From NCBI GenBank assembly GCA_034687125.1, contig JAQGBZ010000221.1:42411-106410 (forward strand): a DNA stretch of 64,000 nt. Direction: 5' to 3'. Shown here piece by piece: positions 23,685 through 54,421 of this stretch; position 1 is the first letter of the stretch, and the number at the start of each line of letters is the position of its first letter. Both the position numbers and the translations under genes were made by a program. The DNA is from Neelides folsomi (taxonomy: Eukaryota; Arthropoda; Collembola; Neelipleona; Neelidae). A model generated the notes under the pieces. That model saw nothing but the letters and a program-made list of their open reading frames with translations, had not been told where the DNA came from and searched no databases.

Positions 23685-23822
23685 GTTTATGTTCCCTTCG
23701 CAAGCGCCATCTTTCTCATTGCTCCTCCAGTCCCATTGGATTGTTCTTCTTTAAAACCCAATTGATCTCACTTTTGCATTTAACTTAAAATCTCCTCCAC
23801 TCGTGTGGGGGGATTCTTCGAA

Positions 23823-26262
23823 ATGGACCACCGGGTCCTCTTGGTCTTTTTATTCTTATTGGGGACTTTCAACTTGGGGGCGACTGCGAGGGCGAGGAGG
23901 AGACCCCAACACAACAACCACAATGAAATACTAGAAGGCAGCGGGGACGACAACGAGGACGATGATGACGATGACGACCCCCAGATCATTTCCCCCCCTC
24001 CAAGGAGATCTTCAAACTTAATCGAACCCACCCCGGCCCTTCCACCCCACTTTCGCCCCTCCGTGGTTCCTTCAGGGGAGTTGTTGGCGGGATCGGGAGG
24101 AGGGATTCCCCTCGTCACGCCCACCCCGACCTTCGTCCTCCCACCAACGACGACTTCCACGGCCTTCCCCCCGAGGATAACGTGAGTTTCAATGAACCTC
24201 CCTAATGGGATTTGTAATTTCAATTTGGTTTGTAGACGAACATACGGGAAGCAGATCTTGGTTGCCGGAGTTCCCTTTAACTTGGCTTTAAACAAAAGTG
24301 GTCACTTCCACTCTTTGGGGGACTTGGAGTTGGAAGCGGTGGACGTCCCCGAATGGGCCACCTTCAACGGGGATGTCATATCCGGCCTTCCCACCAACCA
24401 AGACGTTTCGGAGTATATAGTGACCGTGACGGCCCTTGACGTGTCTTCGAGGTTGTCCGTGTCCCAGCCTTTGTCCCTGTCAGTGAGACAACGACAAAAG
24501 TCGAGACTGCACAATCATTTCTTCACCCTCGAGTTCAACGGGAACGGAAGCGAGGTCTACGGGGCTCTGAGTCGCTTCTTTGGATCTCAAGACATTGTCA
24601 TTGAAAAGAACGACCTTGCAGCTCCTCCCTACTCAACCACGTGGCTCTTTGACTCAATGCTCGGCTCAAACTCGTGAGGGTCAATATTTAAACAAATGAA
24701 AGATTTAATTTCAATTAAATTTTGAACAAAGGTGCCCGGTGAGTGGGCTGAGGGATGTTTACAAGAAGATGGTCGGCCCTGATGGGCAGCTCACTGGTGG
24801 CTTTGCCAATTCTTTAAAACCCCACTTGGTCGGAGTGTCGGTGGAAGTTGGAGTGGCCGGGAACTGTGCCGGGTTGGAAGACGAAATCACGGGGAATCTA
24901 AGAACTCGCCCTCCCTCCGTCAACTACCCGCCATCGTAATACAAACAACCCCAAAGGGTTAGGTTAAAATGAATTTGGCTTCAACAGGGTGAAGCAGATT
25001 GACGAGATTGTGTGCGAAGCGGGGAAACTGTTGGTTTACAAAGTTCCCGATAGTTTCTGTGTGGACCCTGAGGATCCTCCGAGTTCCCTGACCTTGGTTT
25101 TGCTCGACCACGACCGGAGACCGGCGGGGGCCTCGGGGTGGCTCCAGTTTGATGAAAAGAACAAAGAGTTCTTTGGCCTCCCCACCCAACACCACGTCGG
25201 AACCCACCAGTTCTTTTTGTAAGAATTATTCAAATCAATAGAAAGTTTTTAGTTTTAAAAATCCTTCAGGGTTTGCCGAGACAGCGGGGAAAAGGAAGCG
25301 TCCGACGCTTTAGAAGTTTTCGTAAAGTCCGGGGCCGAGTTGGATTATGGGGCCGAGTTTAGTCTCCACTTTGATGGGGGCTCAACGTGGGGGGAAATTC
25401 AAAAAAGGAGATTCATTGAGAAACTCGCAAGCGCCTTTGGTTCTTCCACAAATCAAATCAAAATCAGACAACTCGAGGAATTCCAAGGGACCGTTCACGT
25501 AAAGGTAATCAATTAACTTTAATTTACGAAATCTTAATTGTTTTTGAATTGCAGTGGGTGAATGCGAGCAACCCTTTGGGAGAGCAAGAACTGGGAAATA
25601 TCAGAAAGAGGTTTTTGAGTGCCGAGGGTGGGATTGACAAGAGATTCCTCCAAGTCTTCCAGCCCGAGTTCACCCTTTTGAGGGCCACTGGGTCCATGGT
25701 TCCCCTTGGGCCTGTCATAGGGGCCGAAACTCCTTTGTACTTTGAGCCCGAAGAGCCCAAGTTGAATATCGACGACGAGGGGTCTTCTGAGGTTGTCGTG
25801 GGCGAGTTTGCCTACGTGATCAACTTTCTCCTCCCCGCTGTTTTGATGGCTTTGATGGTTCTTGTGGCCCTCACGGTCGCCTGTCTCCTCGCAAGGAACA
25901 CGTAAAGGAATTTTTTAACTTTAAATCCCATTTTAATTTTGTTTTGATTAGCCGTGGTCGGAGTTTGAAAGAGCGCGAAGCTTTGAAAGCCACCGTTCCC
26001 GTCATTCTCTTTGGGGAAAACGAGGAGGAAATCCAAACAAACAACAAAGGTAATTTAAAACTTTGGAAACGAATTAAAATTAAAATTTGAATTTGAAATA
26101 GGCCGAGTTTGGGTTCACCCACGTGAGGCAAGCCCCGCCCCACTGCCACCGAGTTATTCGCGGGAGAGCTACGCAGCTCCGCCCCCTCTTTTGAATCCAC
26201 GCGGTGTTCAGAACAAACGCCACCCCCACCCACCCAACCCCGCCCCCTACATTCCCCCGTGA
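23823..26262 (+). CDS. Dystroglycan
   Basis: Basement-membrane receptor linking laminin to dystrophin. The order is a signal peptide (MDHRVLLVFLFLLGTFNLG), an acidic and Pro/Thr-rich mucin-like stretch, then a cadherin-like dystroglycan domain (YGKQILVAGVPFNLAL, VDVPEWATFNGDVISGLP). A second copy follows (CEAGKLLVYKVPDSF, GWLQFDEKNKEFFGLP), then a SEA-like domain with an LRATGS motif at the expected self-cleavage position. One transmembrane helix (INFLLPAVLMALMVLVALTV) and a Pro-rich tail complete it. The tail has an internal LPPSY and ends NPAPYIPP, corresponding to the C-terminal PPPYVPP dystrophin-binding site of other animals. It has about 690 residues in eight or more exons, shorter than vertebrate DAG1 (895). 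It follows FoxO by only 143 bp and is tail-to-tail with CARM1. Confidence 0.95.
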
Positions 26263-32020: not shown

Positions 32021-35000
32021 CTAAGAGTTGGTGTTCACGTTCGATGTTTGGGTTAGAGGTGCAAGAGGGATTTCCTTTGGGGGTAGATGCCTTTTCTTTC
32101 CTCCTCTTTTCCCTCGATGCTTCTTCTCACCCTCCTTTGCTTCCTCGCCTTCCTCCCCGTTCTCGTCATTCAAATGAAGCTTGGGAGGATATTTGACCAC
32201 TTTGCTCTTTGGCAAGGTTGGTAGGGCAAGTGGGAGAAGTTTGGTTACGTTCCCTACAGCCTTTGTACGACCCTCGCGAAACACCTGGAAATGTTTGATA
32301 GAATTTTAAACACTCAATATAAATAAAAAAAAAATTGAATCTTTAAGAATTTCAAAATTCTTACCAATCTTTGGTTGAGATTAAGGTACTCTGGATGTTT
32401 AATAAACTTGAAATGAACAAGGGCTTTGTCTCCTGAAATACAAAAAACATTTTAATTTTTTAAAAATGTTTTAATAGTCGTGAATTAAATAAAATAACAT
32501 TAACCTGTTCGAAGACAATCTTGTGACATTGATAAAATAGAAGCTGTTTGGCGAATGCTTCCACAATGAACTGTTAAATAAATTGTGAGTTAATTTTTGA
32601 TTGTAATTGGATTAAATAAAATTAAAAGATTACCCATGGCTTGGTAACGCGTTGAGATGGTTGTAGGGTGATGCAACACGAGGATTTCACCTTCGAATTC
32701 CCAACAGGCTTTGGGGTTCAAAGCCGGGGATACAAGTACCATGCCCTTCCGAATTTGGCTTCTTTTTATCTAAAAAGGATAAAACAAATGGTAATTGGTT
32801 TAATTGATTGGTTAATTTATTTTGTGGATGAATAAATTTTTAAAAAACTACAAACCTTCTTTAAAGAAAAAGAGGCCGTTTGTCCTCCTCGTACTTGTTT
32901 TACAGGCATTCGCTTCCTGTGAATCGATTTGATCGCAATTGGCTGAAAATGTCCAAGAGGGTCAGGACCAAGGAGAAGGATGTCATTGAGAGTTATCGTT
33001 CCTCGGAGGGCTGTTCCGCTTACTACGGTTCCTACGCCCTAATAATCAAACCAATGACATTGCAACAATATTCCCAAGTCAAATCGTCAAATTAAATGTG
33101 ATTTCATACAGGTACTGAATAGGTGTCGTCAATTTGGAATTCAGCAGGTTCATTTTCAAAAGACGGAGTTCGAGTTGTTAAAAGGTTCATGAACATTTTC
33201 AAAAGATCCAAATTTTCCCCTGTCACATTTGATACTTGGAAAACCGGGCAGAGTCTAAAATAATGTTTTATTTAACTACCCGATGCATTGGAAAGCTTTT
33301 TATTGATGTTAGTGCTAAAATTGTTTTGCATACCGTTCCGAAACAAAATTTGTGGCAGACAAAACGACATCGTCTGGAAATGAGTAAATCAAATCATTAA
33401 GATTTTTATCATTAAAAATCAGTAATGATTCGGTAAAAATAAACCAAATAACTTACCATTAGATTTCACAATGACTGGAACTTTTCGACAACCAGGTGAC
33501 TTGAGGACCTTTATTAAGAGCTGAAGTGTTTCTTGTAGTACGTTCGCAGGACACATGTCAATTTTGGTTATGACAACAAATACAGGAACGCTTAATGCCA
33601 AAGCCAATCCTGCATTTATGGAATAAGCACTTTAGTTCATAAAATTATGAATGGTGTTTAAATCAACATACATACAAGTATTTATGAATTTCAATATATT
33701 ACCCAAATGTTCTTTAGTCATTCCTACAATTCCTGCATTAGATCCGATCTGAAAAAAACCTTTGTTTTAAATTTTTGTATTTGTAAAGGTAATTTGGTTA
33801 AATTATTTGGCATGCAAATTCGCCAATTGAAGAATATTTAAATTACCATAAGCATTCCAAAATGAGGAGAATGTCCAGTCATTCCAAACACTAAAAGAAA
33901 TTACAAACATTACATTACATTTACATTTTTTGCAAAGTTTAGTAATAAAAATTAAAACTGTTTTACATAAAAGTCAATCATTTACCTGTTGTTTTCAAGT
34001 ATCTCTCATGGCCAGCGAGATCAATGAAGGTTATGACTTTAGACGACTTTTCACAAATATTGATCCAATCGAGTGACCCATGTTCTGACTTATTCACAAC
34101 TTTCCCTATATAAACCAATAACCAATTTATCATATTTTATCGTTATTTAGATTCAATTCATTCAATGAACTTTGATAAGAAATTAATTGATTAAATCAAT
34201 TAATTGTTCTGAAAATAAAACTGACCTTCGTGATCAAATCCCAGAATATCATTTCCGACCGACGAAGTTCTTCCACTCTCCATTTCGTGCTTGTGCCGAA
34301 AGAGTTTAAGCCGGGCAAGTCCTCGTCCATTGTCAAGTTCACCATGAGTGAGGACACCGAGTAGAGTTGATTTCCCAGCATCAACATTCCCCACCACAGC
34401 CACCCGAATTTCAGTAAAGTCCCGTTCTTCTGCCCTTGCTCTAACCAGAAATTGAGCCGTTTCACCTCCATTGACCACTTTCTTGCGTAGTGGGATACAA
34501 GAAGCATTGAGAGTGTCCCCAATAGATTCAAGTGTTGCGATTGACGCTTCCAAGTCTTCTTTGCTCAAACCACCATCACCATCAGAGCTAATAAAATTAT
34601 ATTTATTAATAAAATTAATTTGCTAATTTCTCATTTATAATTTTGTCGAAATCGAGGTCAATAGTGGAATTATGAGGTTACTTTTATTATTTAAAATTAA
34701 ATGTTTAATGTTTAATTTTATAAATTTTTAATTTTGATCAAAGTAAACAAGTTTAAATGAACAATTTACCTTTCACCTACAACAAAAATGGTTTCTCCAT
34801 TCCCTTCTTCAATCCTCACTTTGATCAACTTGACAAGAGCATCGAATTCTTCCCCATTTGGACTCACCAACTCGGTCTATATTCAAAATAATGGTTAAAT
34901 TGAGCTTAAATTATGTAACAATTTACTTATGGATGAATTTTACCTTCGACTCAATTCCAAAAGACGCGAGTTTGGGTTCTCTCGGGGAAGAAAGATCCGG

Positions 35001-37189: not shown

Positions 37190-40017
37190 ATGCGGGCTTG
37201 CGAAGAGGCCGAGGTTCTCCTCTCCTCCATTTTATCAAAAGTGTCGACAATACAAGGGAGGAGACAGGAGAGAAATCCAATCTCCTATCTCTCAAACTCC
37301 CAATATTTGATAGAGTAAGTCCCTAGACGTTCTTTCTTATTTTTACCATCCTATTGCCATTATTAATTTGAGAAGTATATTTCATTCACTTATATTCTAA
37401 CGACAATAGTTCGAGACCAACAAACTTCTATACACCTCCAATCTATTCAGCACAAAGAACTATTAGACATAAAAGGTAAGATTTAACAAAATAATAATAT
37501 ATGCATAACCTGTAATTTATTACTGTCCTGTAATAAATTATATACTTCTGAATTTGTATATTAAGCTGTTCTTCAAAATAACAATTGTACCAAATAAATA
37601 AAATATTTCTAATACATGGCATGGTCCCTGGTCTATGTATGGTCAAGTCCTATTGAAATTTTCAATGTATGTATTCAATGTTAAACGTTGTATTTAACGA
37701 TAAACTTTATCATTATAAAGGGTTATAAACCATGAATTAAAAACATTTATCTTTTGAAGCAGTAAATAATCAATGAACTGACTTGTCTTTATAATTACCA
37801 AAAAGTCAATAATCTTCTAATACTAAACATTTAGTAGGCATATTTGTATATTCAAACATCTCCATTATAAATGAACTGGTCGATTTTATGAATTTTAGAA
37901 TGGATAAAGAAACGAGAGGAACGCAGACGGACGAGATTCCATCATCATCAACCACTTTCAAGGAAACTTCCACCTCCCCGATGAGTTCCCGGACATCGAG
38001 TGCAAAGTATAAGGCAAAACTCGCCGAGCTCGACAATCTCACCGGCCACATCATCATACACAAGTTCTTTACAAAGGAAGACGTGGACTTGGAGAGCTTC
38101 ATCAAAGAGTTGACAAAGAGAGAGCCAATGGCCAAAATATTTAACTCAACTCTCAACTCGGTCGTTTTTAGTAAAAATGGAACCCAAGAAGTGCAAGAAG
38201 TGAAAACATCTATCGAATTAGATAATAATGCCCAATTTACTACTAATAAAAACGATCCAGTTAAAACAGAGGAGATAGTCGAGAATGGCCACGAAGAAGT
38301 AAAGGAGAAAGAAAACAAAGCAGAGAATTCAAAGAAAAATGAACTTTGTGACCAGGAAAAATCAGTAGATAGAAATATTGTGAAGGATGAATTAGGAGAA
38401 ATCGGAATAAAAGAGAAAAAAATTGCACAGTTACGCACTCAGGGTCAGATATCATCATTTTCATTGGACAAAGTGGAAGATTCTTCAGCTCAAACTCCCC
38501 AAGAGAATCATCAACCCCCAACAATTACAGAAGAAATAAATGAAGAACAATCCGCAGAAAATGAGAATCCAAAAGCAATTAATAATGCTGAAGCAAATAC
38601 AACAAACAAAGCTGAATCAAAAACTATTGATAATGAAGAACCTCAAAATGTTGAAACCAAAGAAAACTCCAAGAATGAACCAAATGAAGATAAGAAAGAG
38701 AAAATGGAATATAGAATATTGGGAGTTGGGCAAATTGTGGGTAAGTCAAGCGAAAGTCGAGAAATAGCCGAAGAGCTTCTACTGAAAATAGAAGAAGAAA
38801 TCATAAATCCTCAAATCTCCAATTTACTTCTCAATCTCCCTTCTTCAACTTCCAATCCTGAATCAGCAAATGAGACCCACCAGGCTAACCAAAGTGTTCA
38901 AACAGAGAAAAATGAGAAAGAGAATAAAATTCAAGTTCCAATAAACGACCAAAATAAGGACAAATCTAAACTTGCAAATCAACCAATTCAAGTTCCCAAA
39001 TTCTCTTATGAGGATGCCGATGGGAATAAAAGTGAAAATGAGCCGGAAGGTTCCGAAGGACAAATCTCATCCGAGCTTATTACCATAATTGAACCCATTG
39101 AGGCTCCCAGTTCCAATGAACCGAAACCAGAAACAAAACAACCGAAACAAGATAATGAAACTGAAAATGGTGAAGCTGCCAAATGTCCATTAGAGCCAGG
39201 AGCCCAATTACCTATAGAATCTGTTGAATCTCAACCAAGTAAATCTATCGAACCTCCCAGCAATTTGTCCGATAAAAATGAAAATGAAGATGTGAAGAAA
39301 CTTGTAAGATCTCCTTCATTCGACAGCGGATTCAATACGAATACCAACACCATAACCGATTCTCCCGAAACAAGCTCAACTTTCACCCCACCAAAGACGG
39401 TGACAAGTGGAGGAAGCAATCTCCTCTTGCCCCCTCCGATAGCACAGTATGAAAACGACTCCATGGAAAAAGAGGAGGAAATGAAACTCGTATGTGCAGA
39501 GGAACAAGAAGCAATTTTAGTTCCAATCCTTTATGGCGACTCAACCGACAACCTAGTCCTTTTTAAGTCCGATGATGATAGTTCGATAGCTGTGGACGAG
39601 AATTACGATGCGAGGTCGGAGTCGTCAAATGTTTCAATTCAAAGCTCAAGGAATTCTAATTTGAGAAATATCAGCGTCCAGACGAGGAAGAAAGGAATGC
39701 GGAGTGGGGGGTTGATGTCAGGAAGCTCGACGGCTTCTTCGAGTGCCCAACTCATTGACTTGGAAGTTGTGTCCAAGAGAAGTTCGGTCATTGGTTCTTC
39801 GAGCCGACGTCTTTACTTGCCATCATCTTCCTCTTCGCTCAACGTGCTCAATTTGGACTTGAGCCTCAGCGCCGTGGATGAGCTGAAGCTGAATGTGAAG
39901 ATGAGTCCAGGACGAGAGAGGAGACGAATCAGCATCAAAGGACCTCCGAAGGAGATTGAAGGTAAAACAGAGAAAGTGAAAAGATCGTTGGAGAGGTTGG
40001 AGAAAGTTGTTAAATAA
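37190..40017 (+). CDS. Acidic disordered protein with several LC8-type QT motifs
   Basis: I do not recognise the family. Three exons join in one frame: 37190-37314 (MRACEEAEVLLSSILSKV..., in-frame TGA just upstream of the ATG), 37410-37475 (RPTNFYTPPIYSAQRTIRHK) and 37899-40017, giving about 769 residues. Donors are GTAAGT and GTAAGA, and the acceptors are clean. An ATG at 37888 lies inside the last intron's acceptor, so it is not used in this model. The large exon opens MDKETRGTQTDE, then a short folded-looking piece (KYKAKLAELDNLTGHIIIHK), then about 550 residues rich in Glu, Lys, Asn and Ser. A Ser-rich basic C-terminus includes RRRISIKGPP. The motifs GTQTD, SAQTP, SVQTE and SVQTR resemble dynein light chain LC8 docking sites. 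I infer an intrinsically disordered scaffold; nothing indicates an enzyme. Confidence 0.8.
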
Positions 40018-40650: not shown

Positions 40651-42872
40651 ATGAATCATCAATTGGAACCTGATCAATTTCATTCTCAAAATTCTAATTC
40701 CTCAACTTCTTCGGTACAATCTGTGGAATATGTCATATCTGCAAAGTCTGTAGCTGCTAATGCAAAAGTGGCTGCTTTAGCAAAATCTATAAAGGTTGGT
40801 CAATTCCTCTCTTTTAAAATAAAACTTAAAATAAAAATACAAGTAACAAGACACAGTTAAATTGTTCTCAAAAACAAAAAAATAGAAAAAAAAGAATTTC
40901 ATAATGTCATTGCCCTTCAGGATAAGGAGTTGCAAGCAAAGAAGGAAGAAAAGGCCGCTGAAAAACTTCGCAAGAAAAAAGAAAGGGATGATAAAAAGGC
41001 TGCAAAGGCTGTTGATAAAGCATTGAAAGATGTGGACAGAGAAGTGGTAAAGTCGATGAAACCAGGAGAAGCTCAAAAGGTTCTAAAATTAAATTCGAAT
41101 ATATATTACATTGGGAGTTAAGGGAAATTTTGAATTCAAATTAAATATTAACTTTGTCCCAATTGTTTTTTATTTAGAATCTGACACTTTTAATTTGTAA
41201 TGAATTGGAGCAAAGATTTCAAGACTTGATAGAAATTCCCATCCTCTCTGCAGAAATGAAATTGGAATATGTGAATGATCCTCTTATCAAGAAATCAATT
41301 TCTTTTCAGAGAGAAATATTCTTTAAAGCTATCGGACCAGACATGAAAGTAATTGTAACATACTTTAATTATAAAATTTAATACTTACTTCTGACTCGAA
41401 TAACTAAATTTAATTTTTAATTAAGGTGAATAAAACGTCAACATTTCATAATGAAGATGACTTGATTACGTTGATCGATATGGAAGATGCGGTGAAAATG
41501 ATCAATGCACAAGTTGACAAAGACTCTTATGGCATGAACCTTCAAGTTTACATTGAATCAATGAAAACGGCAGCACCAGGGAAAAAAATCTCATTTTTCA
41601 TCATGGGTCTTTCCGATTATTTTAAGTAAACCATGATTTGAATTAAATACACTTTAAAACAATCTTTGTAAGAGATTAAAATTTTATCAGGTGTAAATAA
41701 TTTTCACAATTAATTTTATTAAAAGGAAACAGAAGCAAATGGAGAATAAAGAATTTCGCAATAAAGTTTTAGAAGGAGAAAATGGAAGTCCAACCAAGAA
41801 AAGAAAGAAAAAAGAAACACCATTTTCTTTACTTCCAAAGATATCCGAGTAAGTGATAGAAATTGGATGAATTTTATTTCTAATCTCATTTATGATCATA
41901 TTTAATTTATCAAGCAAATTTTAAATTTTTAGATATGACCTCCAGAGTGCCTTATGTGAAGTTCAGATAAACTGCTTGGCAAATATCCGACAAGTGAAGA
42001 ACGAGAAGGAATTTATTCCTTTGCTCCTTCAACTTGCTAGGGCTGTTTCAGATGCTCCGTTCAAGTAAATAATATTCTTTTAAATTATAATTTAAAATAA
42101 TTACTAAGTTTCAGCTTTCTGCCTGCTTCTCCATCACATAAAAAACATGAGCAATCCAATTGTAAGTTAACAATATATTTATGTAATATGAACTTATTGT
42201 TTTAAAATTGCAGGAAAGAAAAAATGAAAAGTGGATTTGATTGGCATGCACTTGCGGACTCTTATGGCGGAATTAAAGTTACAAAAGAAGGTGTTGGGAT
42301 GAAAGATCTTTGGGTAGCTCAACTCCTTCAAATGCCATCGACAACGATTGATATTGCCAAAGCCATTGCTAATAACTATCATTCCCCTCGAGCTCTTTTT
42401 GAAGTACTTAATTTTTTGTTACTAAATTGAAAGATTCAGATTCTGATTTACTAAAGTTCGGAATCGCTTTTTTAGATTTTACTTTTACTTTACCGTATAT
42501 AATAAATAACGAGTATTTTAGGTGTCTGAATACTCATTCAACTTCAACGTTCTATATTAAATAAGCATAAGAGTATTTAGAGATATTAATTAATACAAAT
42601 TACTTGTACTTACATGTTGAATATTATTTATTTTCAAGGCTTACAAATATTGCGGAGAATCCGAAGGGGAAAAACTTCTTCAGGACATCAATGTAATAAA
42701 TCGCTCTATTTTAACAAGGATCTTTTTGATGTAACTTTCCTTTATGGCTCTGTCTTAGGTGCGTATGGGTGTTGGGCCGCTGGCTAGGAACCGAAGATTG
42801 GGCCCTGAATTGAGTAAAAAATATTTCCTTCATTTTACTTCAACGAATCCTGAACGTTATTTGTCTCAATAA
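40651..42872 (+). CDS. EME1: Crossover junction endonuclease EME1
   Basis: Non-catalytic partner of MUS81, which cuts branched DNA during recombination and fork repair. Nine exons join in phase (40651-40794, 40921-41079, 41178-41348, 41426-41625, 41726-41848, 41933-42064, 42214-42403, 42639-42692, 42759-42872) to 428 residues. The N-terminus has a Lys/Ala/Glu coiled coil (KKEEKAAEKLRKKKERDDKK), then ERF-nuclease-like strands, YDLQSALCEVQINCLANIRQ, LLQLARAVSDAPFKK, and WHALADSYGGIKVTKEGVGM. The C-terminal helix-hairpin-helix region has QMPSTTIDIAKAIANNYHSP, YCGESEGEKLLQDI, and GPLARNRRLGPELSKKYF. The last block matches the SRRIGPELSRRIY signature of animal EME1. It is shorter than human EME1 (570), mainly at the N-terminus. 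Confidence 0.92.
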
Positions 42873-46420: not shown

Positions 46421-49400
46421 ATGAACCAAAAATTCGACCTAATTAAAAATTTAGAATCATCAAGAGAAAATGAGATTAAAGCACGGTATACTAAAATATT
46501 TTATTGATTTTTTACGTGTTAAAACATTCATTAAATTATCCATTTCTCAATATTGAACATTTCTTAATAAGTTTAACCCTTTACCCTAATTTGTACTGTT
46601 GTTTATAATTCAATATCGTAAATATTTTCACAGGTTGAAGGAAGTTAGTGTTGAAAACAAAGATGATTATGAAGAAGTTCGCAAGTTCATTGAAAATCAT
46701 CTTCACAGAGAAGCTCAAGAAGAAATCTTTGATTCATTTCAAATCTCTGAAGTTCTCACTCTCCTCAAGAATGTCGGAGAAAACACCGTTAAGGAATTAA
46801 GAGGTGAAGAAATCTTATGGCGTTCAATTACTTCCCAACTCATCCCATTAATCTTCACCTATTTCTCTTCAATCCTCGAAGATCAAAAGATTCGTCTGGA
46901 AAAGAGTAAATCTCGAGATGAGGATGATAAACATCAACAATTGTCCGCTGTTGAAACTCAGCTCTTTTTCTCTACACTTCACAAGACCATTCGAACAATT
47001 GTTATTTTCCTTAAAGCCCTCATCTCCCTTCGTCACCCTTTGACCAAAGAAGTTGACAAAGTTGGGCATGACATTGCTGATATTCTTCTAATGTCCCGGC
47101 TTGACATTGCCCTTGATATCAAATGCAACATGGGCCTTTGTCTCACGCAAATGTTTATCATTTCTTTGGGAGAGGAATCAATTGACTTGCTAATGTTCAT
47201 TCTTAATCCTGAGGATGCCAAAGAAAGGGAAAATCCCCTCGAAAATAAAATGAAGGAACTTTGTAAAAGCGAAATGAACCGAATTGTTCTTTCTATCGGG
47301 ATTTTGAGTAGCTTTACAGAAATTGGTCAATTGAAGATTTCGGATGATCAAATTGCTTCTCTTTTATATGAACTTGGAAACGATCTTATAAAACTGGACC
47401 ATGGGTAAGTTATATTCAATTATCCGAGTACATCTATAATTGTATGAAATTGAAATTGGCATTAAAATAAAACTAAAAATTAAACAATAATGCATTAATA
47501 AACAAAATTATTAATTATTTCAAACAACTTTACTAACCCGTTGTAATTTTTTTATTTGGTTCATTTATGTTTGACTTTATTTTAGTTATCGTTTACTTTA
47601 CTTTTATAGGGCAAAGGAAATTAAAAATTTAGGAGCATCCAGAGCCCTTGACATTTGGCTTGACAAAATCGTTCAAAGAAAAGAAAGCGTAAAACTTCTT
47701 GATCGTTTAGCTCCACTTTTTCCTTCATTGGAATTTTTCATTTTCAACAAAATGGATTTTCACATTGATGCTGTGAAAAATTGTTGTCGGTCAATTCTCT
47801 GTAATCTTTCAATCCTTTATGATTATATGAGTCTGGAAGATGATTCTAATTTGTACAAATTACTGTTGCAATTATTTCGTAAACCTACACATGTTAAATG
47901 GGTAAATAATACTTATTTGTGAACCAATTACTAACTATACTAGAGACCATTGAATGGTCAAAATAATTGAATATTTAATTTTTATTCAGATCGGAATTTC
48001 CTGTGTTGTTCGAAATAGTCCAAAATCCCTTCACTCAATTTATCTAATTGAAAAGTCAATTCCTTTCTCTTTATTAACCTGCGAACGAATGTTCGTTCAT
48101 CCGGTATGTTAATATTGTAATATAAACTTGAATTTACCCTATGTTAATTACCAATCTTTTTATAAAGTCATTTTAAATTTTCGATTTTTAGGCAACTGAA
48201 GCTTACATTGCTTTAATGAAGCATCATTTTGAAGCGAAACATCCTCAATTTGAAGAGATATGGCTTGATCCATTATTTCACGTACAAGAAACATTAAGAA
48301 CTGAAACCAATTGGCCGCAAAAGCGAGCAATTTTGCTATCTCTCTTTTGCCCAACTCGAACCGGAAATGAAGGAATCGTGGAACTTCTTCTATCGTCAGT
48401 TCTTTCCAAAATGCAATGTGGGAAATTTTCATTTCCTCGAACAGAATCTTCCCTCCTTGCAGTGGAAATTTTAAAGGTGGCATCCGAGAGAAAAATGTCA
48501 TCTGTGATTTCCTCAAATGACAATAACGAGAATTCTTTCCGTGGGATTGTTCCGAAGGATGTTTTGCATTCTTGGTTCTTTTCGGCAAATAAACAGGTAC
48601 AATTGAATACAATATGCATAAAATTCAAGATTACTAAATTACTTATTAGAGGCACAAAAGTGTAAATTTGTTATTTGTGTATTCTTAAATAATGTCATTA
48701 CTCTTTCAGATTCGACTTGCAGGGTTTTCCTTATTAATCGAATCAAAGAAGAGTTCTGAAGTCTTTACAATCGCTGATTTTGAATCCCTCAAAGTATTTT
48801 TCAAATATAATATTGTGAATCAAAGTCCAGCATTTCGCCAACAATTTATCTCCTACTTTAAAAAGGTATAAAATTTTAATTTAATTGAAATATTAAAAAT
48901 ATTATCTTTGGAAGTTTGCTCAATTCTTTAATCTTAATTGCAGTTAATGAAGAGACTAACTGATAGTAGAAGTTTGCTAAAACGCCAAAAGAATTTGAAA
49001 GCTCTCGAATCCTATACGGATTTCTTTAATTGGCTTTGGAATTTCTTAACCGAAGATGAAGGAATTCACGAAGGGGCGAATTTTGCTCGTCGATGCCAAT
49101 CGCTCGAATGCCTCTCGCTTCTCACTGAAAACTTCAAAATGGAAGAATTCTTAAAATTTGAATTGAACAGTTCTCCTTTCTTTTCCTCCCTCATTGACAC
49201 TTATGAAGTTAACAAATCGAAATGTCTTTCCATTCTTTCTCGACTTCCCATCAAGGATTTTGATAAAGAAGAAGAATGTTTAAAATACATTTCAACTGCT
49301 TGTGAGAATCTCTTCAGTTCTCGCCCTCCCGAGTCGGTCACTGGGAAATACTTATTGCTACTCGTCATTAATAAGTCAACTTTTCAATCTTCCACTTCTT

Positions 49401-52400
49401 GGGCGATTCTTAATAAGTTGTTTAAAATATTAGATGAACACGTTAAGAAAGTAATCAGTTTGATTTATTTAATAGTCAGCTCTAATCATCTCAATTTTAA
49501 AAGTTATAAAAACTTAATATTTAAATTATTATTCGTAGATTGATGAAACATCTTTAATTGAAGTGGCTGCTAAAAGTCCTTTGTATGGTTGTATGGCCGC
49601 ATTGAGAGCTATTTTCTGTTCAACGAAAAATTTTATCAAAGAAAGCGAAGGAGGATTGCAAAGTTATATTAAGGAAATTGTAAATCTTTGCTTTAAAATT
49701 AATTACATTATGTTTCCGGTTCTTGGATCTCCTGCCCCTGAAGGATTTTTACCAGGTACATTTCAATAAACCTTTTGCTAATAAAATTATTTATGTGTAG
49801 TATAATTACAGTATTTAAAATGTTTTTCTAGGTCTTGCAGACTCTTCCGATGATAAGTTGGTCGTGAGGTCTTTAAGTGCTCAAATGCTTCTGGTTTGTT
49901 CATGGCGATCGATGAAAGAAGCCTGTCTTTTACTTTCTGATATTTCAAATGTTTTCCCCATTGAAGGAGAGAATGAAAACTTTATTGTTTCTTATGCACA
50001 AGTAAAATACATAATTTTTCTCAAAGTTACAAATATTTACACGATCGATTTATTTTAGGATCATATGAATTGTAATTGACTCTACATTTATTGTTTAGAT
50101 TGTCGAGATTGGGAATCATCTTTTATATTTACTAAAGAATTTGATGCATAGAGGAGTATTTGAACAAGTTTTCGTTGGTTTTAAAATACTTTCAACTCGA
50201 TTATGGAGGTGAGAAAGATCCAAAACTTATTTTTTGTAATGAATTAAACGATTTTTTTTATTTAGGAGTGGATGCCGTAAACTTAATGAACTTCCTGAAA
50301 CCTGGTTGAACGCAGTTGTAAAAGACGAAGAACTTGAATCAAAGTGTACAATTACGAGACGAAGTGGGGGTCTACCGTTCATTTTTCAGGTTAACAGTTT
50401 AATAAACTTTGTTAAAATTACTCTTATTCAAGGAGCTTAAATCATGGGCGTAAATATGATTTTATGTATTAGGCGCTCTTATCGGGGGAAAGTAACAACG
50501 AAGTGTTTTTTAACAAATGGATTCACCGATTATTCGTTCATCAAGAGTCGATCAAAATGAGGGTAAAATAAATTAATTCTTGATATTAATAGAGTTGTAA
50601 TATAATAAATTATTTGTTTAGATTCATTCAATGAATATTCTTCGGAGTTTATTCAGAGATGCTGGATTTTCTCGTGGAATGATGCCATTTGTTCCATTGG
50701 GACTTAAAATGGCCTTTAAGGGGCTCAAATCTGGAGATTGGAATGTAAGAATATTTATTTAGTAAATATTCATGTTATTAAAATTCAACTTTAGATCACA
50801 ATTAACTTAAACTGTATTGTAATTATTTAATTGGGCATTTAAAAATCGATAATTTAATTTTAGGAAAGAAATTCTGGGTTGATGTTATATGGTTCAATAT
50901 TAAGAAGAACTTTTGGACCAAAAATGAACCTCATGAGCGGCTCAACATTCTTTTCCAAATTTCCCTTAATGTACGATTTCCTTCTTGGTGAATTGGAAGA
51001 GTTGAGTGCAGGAGTTCACACTTTCTCTGATTACACATATCATGTGCTCCTCTTGATCGCCTCTTTTGCTCCTCCTGTCAGAGTCGAAGATGAGCATTTT
51101 AAAGTAATTTAAACTTAAGTTCCACTAATTTTAAACAAAAAATAATTGAAAACCTAATCATTTAATTTGGTTTACTCGCAGCTTAATAAGTTCATTTATC
51201 ATGTTCAAAAATGTGGATCTAGTCCTGACTCCCATGTCGTAAGAATTTTTATTAAAATACATTATTAAATTAGATTTTAGATAAAGTAAATAGTTTTTAA
51301 AATTTCAAGAGTTTATTTTTCAAACAAAGCATCTATTTTAATTGATAAAATTATTATAATACTTTTTTACATCGCAGAGGAGACTTGCAGCCAAAGCCAT
51401 CATTCCTCTTTTATTGAACAAAGAAGAAATGCTTTTATTTATTGCTACATCATGTGAAAGCATTAAATCAGATAGTAAAAGCAACGAAATACATGGAACT
51501 TTAATTCAGGTAATTATTGAAGATTTGACAAATGATACATTTACAACATTTACAGACAAAATTTTGAACTATTCAAATCCTCTTTTTAATCTTCAAATTT
51601 GTCTAAATAATGATCCTTTTGGTAATTGTAGATTCATGCAATCTTAAGCCTTTTAAAGAGTTCATGTATCGAAGAAGAATGGGAATTTTTAAAACATGAT
51701 TTGAAAAGATCAATTCAACCATTAATGACTTCTGAAAATATCACAAGGAAATGTCCGGCTATATTGGAAATCCTAGTCGATATCTCTTCTGAACTACAAG
51801 GAGAATTTTGGGAATCAATTTATTTATCTTATAGAAAATGCTACGGGAATGTAACAAATCGACGTTTTATTCCTTGTTTACCCAATCTTGACATGAAAAT
51901 TGTGAATATTGTGATTGAAAAGGAATTAAGCTTGAGTGATAATTATGAAAAAATGATTTCTTGGGTTGAAAATGAAAATTTGCATTTTCTAACTCAACTT
52001 CTCAATTTCCTTGTTTGTGATGATAACAATTTTTCGTGGAATTTTGGAGTCGAAAAGACCTACGAGTTTGTCGTGAAAATTTGGAGAAAGGTCATGAAAC
52101 TTGTTGAGGAATTGAATGGGAAAAATATCGTTGAAGAGAAAATGCTCCTTTTCTTTGCTATTCTAGATTCCAACGTATATTTAGAATGGTTAAAAAACAA
52201 TGAAGAGGAGTTTAAACAATTCTGGAAAAAACTGTTCAATTTTCTTTTTAATCCACACGGAACCATTGAAGCCAAAGGAGGATGCATTCGCTTGTTGTTT
52301 AACATTTTATTTCAAACGCCGTTCTCAATAATAAAAGTAAATTATCTATTTTTTAATTGTAGTTGAGTTGACTTCTTTTAAATCTATTTTATAGGATGAA

Positions 52401-54421
52401 GAATTTCGACTTTGTGATCTATTTTTTGAACTGACGGAATCTTCATGCGAAGACGAACTTCGACTTGCAATTGCTCATTCGGCTCCTCATATTCCAATTA
52501 ACAGCATAAATAAATTACAAGGTTTGTCTTTAAAACTCATTTGGATTAAACTGATTGTTATTTACAGGCTTGGAGAAAGTTTCACTTTTGACCCAGAGAA
52601 AGAAAGAAACTGAAATAAATGAAAATTTCTATTTATTTCACTTAAAACCTGCGAAACTTTCAAATTTCTTTTTCTTACTCTAAAAAATTTTTCCTTCTCC
52701 AAAGTTCTTTATATAAAACTAATATAATTTGTTGATTAATATTTTATTTAAAGATAAAAATGTCCCAATAAACTATAAATGTCAAGTTGTTAAACAAATT
52801 GTTTCAAAACATTCATGAACCACCAACAAAGAAACAATTTTCTTACCTATGCTTTAAATGCTTCAAAATTACTCCCGGTTGGTTGTACCGCAGACGAATC
52901 TGGGTGTAACGCAAACGGTTTATCTTATGATTTTCTTCTTTCCGAACTTTACTTCCGAATGCTTTAAGCTTTATCGACAGGCACTTTCTCATTAAATACT
53001 TTTACTTCCCTTTTTAAATTGTCAAAAACTCTTCTAAGAATTCGAATCTCTCATCTATTGTAGAATTAGCGACTGAGGGCCAATTGCTCAAAGAATTGTA
53101 GGAATCCATTAAGAAAATTTAGTTTTAATAAAATATATTCTACGAATACTAACCTAACAAATATTTGTCGATGGAATGGATGGAAAATAAGAATCAAATT
53201 CAAAATATTGCATATTTTAGTTGGATGGGAATGCCTTGATTTAGATGGCGTTAATTTTCTAAATTTCAGTCTAATTTTTCACTTTTAGTTATTGAGAAAT
53301 AAATAGAAACTTTCTGAAATATTTCACTTGGCCCAAAGTGAAATAAACTGAAATAAAGAAATATTTCAGAAAGTTTCTAATCCCAAGCCTGGTTATTTAT
53401 ATTTTTTGAAAGGAACAATTTACTAAACAATGACAATGAGTCAATGAGACTTTAAATTGTAATATAATGACCTAATTAAACTTTATTCATTTTTAGTGTT
53501 AAATCAATGTAAAATATTTATGGGAATATTTCGGCTCTTACAAGATGATGAGATTTGCGTTCGAGAAATTCTGCACCGGAAGCTTCCGAATGAAACTCCT
53601 TATTGTGATAGAAAATCGCTGGAAGTTACTGTAAGGGCTTTTTACAATATCCTATCATATCAAATTACATTTCCATTTTTCTTTTTAATGAATCTTTTTA
53701 AATCCCTCATTACGATTAAAATAGATGGGAGTTTACCTAAATAGTTTCGTAAGTTGTTTTCCGAACGAAGGCCTCGTGGCTCTCATTGGACTTTTATTTC
53801 GTCGAGAGAATGAAATCCGAGTCGAAGGAGACGAGAACGTAAATTAAAAATTTTAAATAATACAAATTGTATACCTGTATATGCGACCTATACCAATCTA
53901 CATATTAACTCTGCTTAGCCATTATTGATTCGTGTCATATTCCATAAGGTTAAACCTTTAAAAATGCACATTTAATATCACGCCTACGAATAAAAATTAT
54001 ATTTACGCATTCCTTAATATTTTCGTATTGTTTGAATGCGTAGGAGGAAGACGAGGATCGCGTATTTGATAAATCGGAAATGAACATTTTTGCTGAGGAA
54101 GTTTTACTTGCTAAAGTTCTTGAAGAAGAATTGATCAAATTGCCACAACTCCGTCTTCAGCTTACGGATTTCTTCCTCCATGGCATAATGACACCTTCAC
54201 TATATCAAATATTCCAAACTCTTTGTGGAGAAAGCTGGGACGAAGGGGAGATTTCGCTTAAAGCTATTCTTACCAACAAATTTCATCCAGACTCTCCACG
54301 GAATAATTCAACGAAAGTGGAAGGAGCAAAGAGGTTGGTAATGGAAATTATTATGAAAGTTCTCAATGAACCAATCCAAGCAATGACAAATTCACTAAAT
54401 GCATTTGATTTAAACACTTGA
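46421..54421 (+). CDS. THADA: THADA/Trm732-type tRNA 2'-O-methylation scaffold
   Basis: Large helical-repeat protein that works with the FTSJ1/Trm7 methyltransferase to modify position 32 of tRNA anticodon loops; it is also linked to energy balance in flies. Exon 1 (46421-46485, MNQKFDLIKNLESSRENEIK) joins in phase to a long exon at 46634. About 20 further exons encode alpha-solenoid sequence. The DUF2428 core shows SPLYGCMAALRAIF, VLGSPAPEGFLP, VVRSLSAQMLLVCSWRSMKE, ACLLLSDISNVFP, then TITRRSGGLPFIFQALLSGE, FRDAGFSRGMMPF and MSGSTFFSKFPLMYDFLL. A late exon has DRVFDKSEMNIFAEEVLLAK. The protein should be about 1500 residues, somewhat shorter than human THADA (1953). The intron at about 52520-53490 contains a hAT-like element. 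The stop is at 54419-54421. Confidence 0.92.
52565..53391. mobile_element. hAT-like MITE with 8-bp target duplication in a THADA intron
   Basis: The element starts CAGGCTTGG at 52565 and ends with the complement CCAAGCCTG at 53391. It is flanked on both sides by GTTATTTA (52557-52564 and 53392-53399). An 8-bp duplication and ends beginning CAGG are typical of hAT transposons. Subterminal blocks containing GAAAGTTTC and GAAATAAA repeat in both orientations, as transposase-binding sites often do. No transposase frame is present, so it is non-autonomous. Confidence 0.85.

Follow-up and report, generated by a model that had tools for sequence, protein, structure and literature searches.

A long open frame on the plus strand of Neelides folsomi DNA raises two questions: whether it belongs to a real protein-coding gene, and whether the QT motifs that it carries are docking sites for the dynein light chain LC8. 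The window analyzed here is a stretch of 64,000 nucleotides from contig JAQGBZ010000221.1, part of an assembly of 75.1 Mb in 840 contigs. The cuticle domain Chitin_bind_4 has 39 matches in the genome, and the mitochondrial cox1 reads open under the invertebrate mitochondrial code; both fit an arthropod. Only three 7tm_6 receptor matches were found (best E 8e-8), which suggests a non-insect, such as a mite. With somewhat better than even confidence, we favor the reading that the frame specifies a probably disordered arthropod protein of 705 or 769 residues, predicted from its sequence to be a client of LC8.

A sequence-only reading of the window had joined three exons into one uninterrupted frame of about 769 codons, and this join was confirmed. 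Joining 37190–37314, 37410–37475 and 37899–40017 on the plus strand yields 769 sense codons followed by the TAA stop, 770 codons in all. The stop that had been placed just upstream of the ATG is an in-frame TGA four codons 5′ of 37190. Both introns, of 95 and 423 bases, are GT-AG and phase-compatible; the donors are gtaagt (intron 1) and gtaaga (intron 2), and the acceptors end in aatag and tttag, respectively. Exon 3 (37899–40017, plus strand) holds an in-frame ATG at 37900, from which 705 codons run to the TAA at 40015–40017. The open frame containing this exon is 734 codons long. The longest frame obtained in 1000 dinucleotide shuffles was 231 codons, and the remaining five frames of the exon 3 stretch contain 17–67 stops. 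The frame looks like a real protein-coding gene for a long, floppy protein; exon 3 is secure as sequence, and its expression and splicing are predicted. Two donor-like GTRAG sites lie within exon 3 on the plus strand, at 38741 (GTAAGT) and 39304, and alternative splicing is possible.

The encoded protein is probably long, acidic and disordered. Ser, Glu, Lys and Asn together account for 43% of the residues, with Ser at 13%, Thr at 6.2%, Gln at 4.7% and Cys at 0.5%. The net charge is −32, and the mean hydropathy places the protein on the disordered side of the charge–hydropathy line. An AlphaFold2 (AF2) model of the exon 3 protein, built without relatives, has a mean pLDDT of 39, with the highest values in a short C-terminal helix. 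As a prediction, then, the earlier description of the product as mostly acidic and disordered stands. The single-sequence model also suggests, at low confidence, a helix at residues 348–375 (38749–38832, plus strand), ending 23 residues before Q398. By the TOP-IDP disorder scale, order-like stretches include residues 18–56, 102–148 (38011–38151, plus strand), 603–634 and 653–730, with short breaks. The 80 residues 91–170, modeled without relatives, reached a mean pLDDT of 58.5. A Foldseek search of this model against the PDB gave a best E of 0.61 and no match at E≤0.001, and for this reason no fold is claimed for the segment. The repeats found are two inverted pairs, both imperfect, and four families of short direct repeats, with nothing structured among them.

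The host genome encodes a canonical LC8. When its two exons on contig C180 are joined, the product is identical at 87 of 89 positions to PDB 1rhw, dynein light chain 1, which we take to be the fly protein; given this identity, the rules established for human and fly LC8 should apply. Two more Dynein_light genes were found in the genome (L006 on contig C171 and L007 on contig C305), and both are presumably DNAL4-like rather than LC8. The four QT sites were found at the proposed positions, with GTQTD at 37918, SAQTP at 38485, SVQTE at 38893 and SVQTR at 39673. PMC10046861 describes LC8 as a hub whose partners number more than 100. We compared each octamer with the published position rules, which combine a (T/V/I)-Q-(T/V) anchor with allowed residues at −4, −3, −2 and +2; the cut-offs, such as which residues count as too small at −3, are our own reading of PMC6607443.

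Three of the four octamers pass: site 1, ETRGTQTD (Q73; 37909–37932), site 3, ANQSVQTE (Q398; 38884–38907), and site 4, RNISVQTR (Q658; 39664–39687), all on the plus strand. Site 2, EDSSAQTP (Q262; 38476–38499, plus strand), has an AQT anchor and a small residue at −3; it fails the rules and is unlikely to be an LC8 site. Thus, three of the four motifs that had been called LC8-like keep that description, and SAQTP loses it. AF2 single-sequence pLDDT is below 50 at all four sites, and the TOP-IDP values for sites 1–4 are 0.21, 0.25, 0.28 and 0.11. Site 4 has two weak points, an Arg at +2, outside the favored P/D/E, and its position within an order-like stretch.

Site 1 is close to VSRGTQTE, a DYNLL ligand evolved in vitro, and to the EML3 site. 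It shares RGTQT exactly, and the changes at −4 and +2 are conservative; at −5, however, site 1 has Glu, where the evolved peptide has an affinity-raising Val (PMC3078936). According to the same paper, phage-selected VSRGTQTE binds with a Kd of 0.08 µM, and the SRGTQTE core without Val at −5 binds at 15.2 µM. The QSVQTE of site 3 also occurs in MAST1, and the SVQT of site 4 in RCVSVQTD of SON; both are tested LC8 binders (Table 2 of PMC6607443). This likeness compares peptides alone, and the present protein has no detected Pfam domain. A motif of this kind is an imperfect guide to binding: in that paper, 7 of 19 peptides chosen by PSSM bound LC8, SIQT peptides from DAZL and from FMN2 did not bind, and an AQT peptide of IRS1 is listed as a nonbinder. 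Several TQT peptides were nonbinders as well, including the GTQT peptides of POU2F1, MUC2, SH3RF2 and ITGAX, which carry T, T, S and N at −3, whereas site 1 carries R (PMC6607443).

LC8Pred-type scoring of the motifs, which the sequence-only reading had suggested, was approximated by a rough replica that carries little weight. It was built from 18 binder and 25 nonbinder octamers, leaving out viral and phage peptides, four "weak" binders, duplicates, and nonbinders that lack a usable Q anchor or have LQT or RQT. In leave-one-out scoring, a volume/polarity score of at least 2.7 was reached by 10 of the 18 binders and one of the 25 nonbinders. Sites 1, 3 and 4 reached this level (3.2, 2.7 and 6.2, with MAST1 and SON within the training set), and site 2 scored −3.9. 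The replica nevertheless gives the tight binder VSRGTQTE a score of −1.9, and its amino-acid part scores site 2 (14.9) within the range of sites 1, 3 and 4 (17.0, 14.1 and 13.9).

LC8 binding at one to three of the sites is plausible, because three octamers pass the rules, a canonical LC8 is encoded and the model confidence at the sites is low. In the proposed arrangement, an LC8 dimer would bind the R-G-T-Q-T-D strand of site 1 near the N-terminus, and the two S-V-Q-T strands of sites 3 and 4 may be bound as well. Two copies of the chain would then be held alongside each other at points that are far apart and independent. Both the binding of the present protein by LC8 and its dimerization are what we infer from the motifs.

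The number of sites was compared with chance expectation. At least three rule-passing sites occurred in 0.37% of 20,000 shuffles of the protein; in the same shuffles, at least four xQT triplets occurred in 1.35% and at least three [TVI]QT triplets in 0.67%. The pattern [KR]xTQT[DE] appeared in 0.32% of 60,000 shuffles. We also scanned 57 mechanical ORFs, none shorter than 150 aa, from the window and from loci L018–L040 (12,222 aa, with the present ORF included and overlapping frames kept). A single rule-passing site, anchored by TQI, TQV or IQV, is found in each of three other ORFs, and the present ORF has three. For a single protein, this set of sites exceeds chance; it is notable there and not for a proteome. 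A rate of 0.37% per protein would imply that chance produces some tens of such proteins in a proteome, and many motif classes besides LC8 could have caught attention.

Searches for relatives gave null results. Pfam returned no family for the exon 3 protein at E≤0.1, and none at E≤10 for the exon 3 protein, three parts of it and the N-terminal 160 residues. The 769-residue protein had no sequence match in the PDB at E≤1. These missing Pfam and PDB matches say only that no library domain was detected. A protein search across the whole host genome found nothing beyond the exons of this gene, and no second copy. The exon 3 protein gave 55 pattern matches in a collection of prokaryotic contigs and 10 in a collection of viral contigs, none of which was confirmed; both are poor places to look for relatives. 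Among the literature matches listed, none was recognizable from its title or the beginning of its abstract as dealing with such an arthropod or mite protein, which does not imply that the protein is unpublished.

These results bear on an alternative that we consider quite possible, if short of even: this may be an ordinary disordered protein that evolves fast and abounds in S, E, K, N, T and Q. Its QT triplets would then have arisen by chance, and its function would have nothing to do with LC8. The Thr, Gln and Ser contents make xQT triplets common, with a mean of 0.98 per shuffle. The spacing of the sites is wide and irregular, one of the four is clearly poor, and Pfam, the PDB, the host genome and the prokaryotic and viral collections yielded neither a domain nor a relative. 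Such an origin is harder to reconcile with the rarity of three or more rule-passing sites among the shuffles and with the closeness of site 1 to the phage-selected optimum.

The start of translation affects the length of the predicted LC8 client. Putative exon 1 (37190–37314, plus strand) supplies 41 codons and 2 bases, and putative exon 2 (37410–37475, plus strand) supplies 22 codons' worth, including the NFYTPPIYSAQRTIRHKR region. This sequence had been presented as the N-terminus of the protein; it corresponds to residues 47–64 of the very model in which it was proposed. The ATG at 37190 lies in a weak context, with C at −3 and C at +4. The context of the in-frame ATG at 37900 is better (A at −3, G at +4), which makes a product of 705 residues a serious alternative; this product would begin MDKETRGTQTD, with LC8-like site 1 at its extreme N-terminus. 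Exons 1 and 2 would then be 5′ untranslated or belong to another transcript. We regard a start at 37900 as possible, and distinctly short of even. Exons 1 and 2 receive no support from a codon-usage test trained on 15 ORFs (3,937 codons), in which they were indistinguishable from other open segments; the test is powerless either way, as even the score of the first 100 codons of exon 3 was reached by 40% of random open segments. On the other side, both introns preserve the phase, and they use the only two GTRAG sites between 36901 and 37899. The GC content is 0.456 in exon 1, 0.348 in exon 2 and 0.246 in intron 2. When AT-rich flank was joined at random 20,000 times, a 5′ extension like exons 1 and 2 remained open in 0.5% of cases, a figure that flatters these exons because the flank pool is poorer in GC than exon 1. 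We consider it plausible that exons 1 and 2 are coding.

The LC8 proposal had also been made in a stronger form, in which the protein is a scaffold organized by LC8 through multivalent sites, with several LC8 dimers zipping two chains together in register. We consider this scaffold unlikely. More than one plausible site does lie within one disordered chain, but one of the four fails and the three that pass are separated by 325 and 260 residues. The linkers studied in fly ASCIZ are 3–41 residues long; those of 6/9 residues gave homogeneous complexes, and those of 30–41 residues already gave heterogeneous ones (PMC10046861 and PMC5963919). The short linkers of the ASCIZ type are absent here, and on this comparison in-register zipping, as in an LC8 zipper, is unlikely. 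Widely spaced sites do occur within one client, which can be read in favor of a scaffold: the LC8 sites of KIBRA shown experimentally lie at residues 283 and 892 (PMC12057147), and homologues of ASCIZ have extra sites flanked by extensive linkers (PMC10046861 and PMC5963919). Since such clients exist, the wide spacing is compatible with independent binding of LC8. The spacing therefore favors an LC8 client over an LC8-organized scaffold, and the proposal remains plausible in the modest form of a predicted client, whereas the scaffold is unsupported. A further conception, which we hold to be quite improbable, is that of a lineage-restricted, undescribed disordered protein whose LC8-bound dimer would be docked at three far-apart points, forming a looped parallel duplex that acts as a flexible spacer or tether and not as a rigid LC8 rod.

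An EME1-like gene follows on the same strand, with its ATG 634 bases downstream, but it is highly improbable that the frame serves as an alternative 5′ part of this gene. EME1 proteins have disordered N-termini and the donor-like sites inside exon 3 could serve such a transcript, but the frame ends at its own TAA at 40015, the EME1-like ORF starts at a separate ATG at 40651 (A at −3), and the four AATAAA signals between them (40107, 40147, 40198 and 40253) mean that the two frames are best read as separate genes, so that this candidate was rejected.

The EME1-like (MUS81 partner) endonuclease gene spans 40651–42784 on the plus strand, and its N-terminal part looks short; its exon at 42206–42427 matches EME1 in the PDB at E of about 2e-4 and PF21292 at 26.9 bits (cut-off 27.4). 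Upstream, a GTP-binding protein 1-like gene runs from 34622 down to 32820 on the minus strand; its exon at 34203–34622 matches GTP-binding protein 1 in the PDB at E 1.9e-46, and further exons show weak GTP_EFTU and GTP_EFTU_D2 matches. A CARM1 (PRMT4) gene runs from 27686 down to 26824 on the minus strand, with a methyltransferase exon matching CARM1 at approximately 8e-71 and PRMT_C in the next exon. The exon at 24186–24677 on the plus strand, perhaps part of 23784–25902, has a He_PIG domain (PF05345) just above the cut-off and is, we assume, a possible relative of sarcoglycan or dystroglycan. From 46590 to 54418, a long plus-strand run of open frames is perhaps one large gene; seven of its frames were scanned, giving one CRAL_TRIO_2 match below the cut-off and none above it, and one frame had no match in the PDB. 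A cytochrome b561-type exon lies on the minus strand from 62309 down to 62028, with PF03188 just above the cut-off.

If the protein is indeed an LC8 client, it would be a new one from an arthropod, its motif near-optimal and its sequence lacking detectable homology to clients already known, and would represent independent evolution of the motif. The effect would be modest unless conservation or a cellular role were shown.

KIBRA carries WW domains, and the present protein, unlike KIBRA, has none that could be detected. What the two may share is the placing of LC8 sites far apart in one chain (PMC12057147). With ASCIZ/ATMIN, the likeness lies in a disordered chain that carries several QT motifs; fly ASCIZ has in addition an N-terminal zinc-finger domain (PMC10046861 and PMC5963919), whereas Pfam detects no zinc finger in the protein described here.
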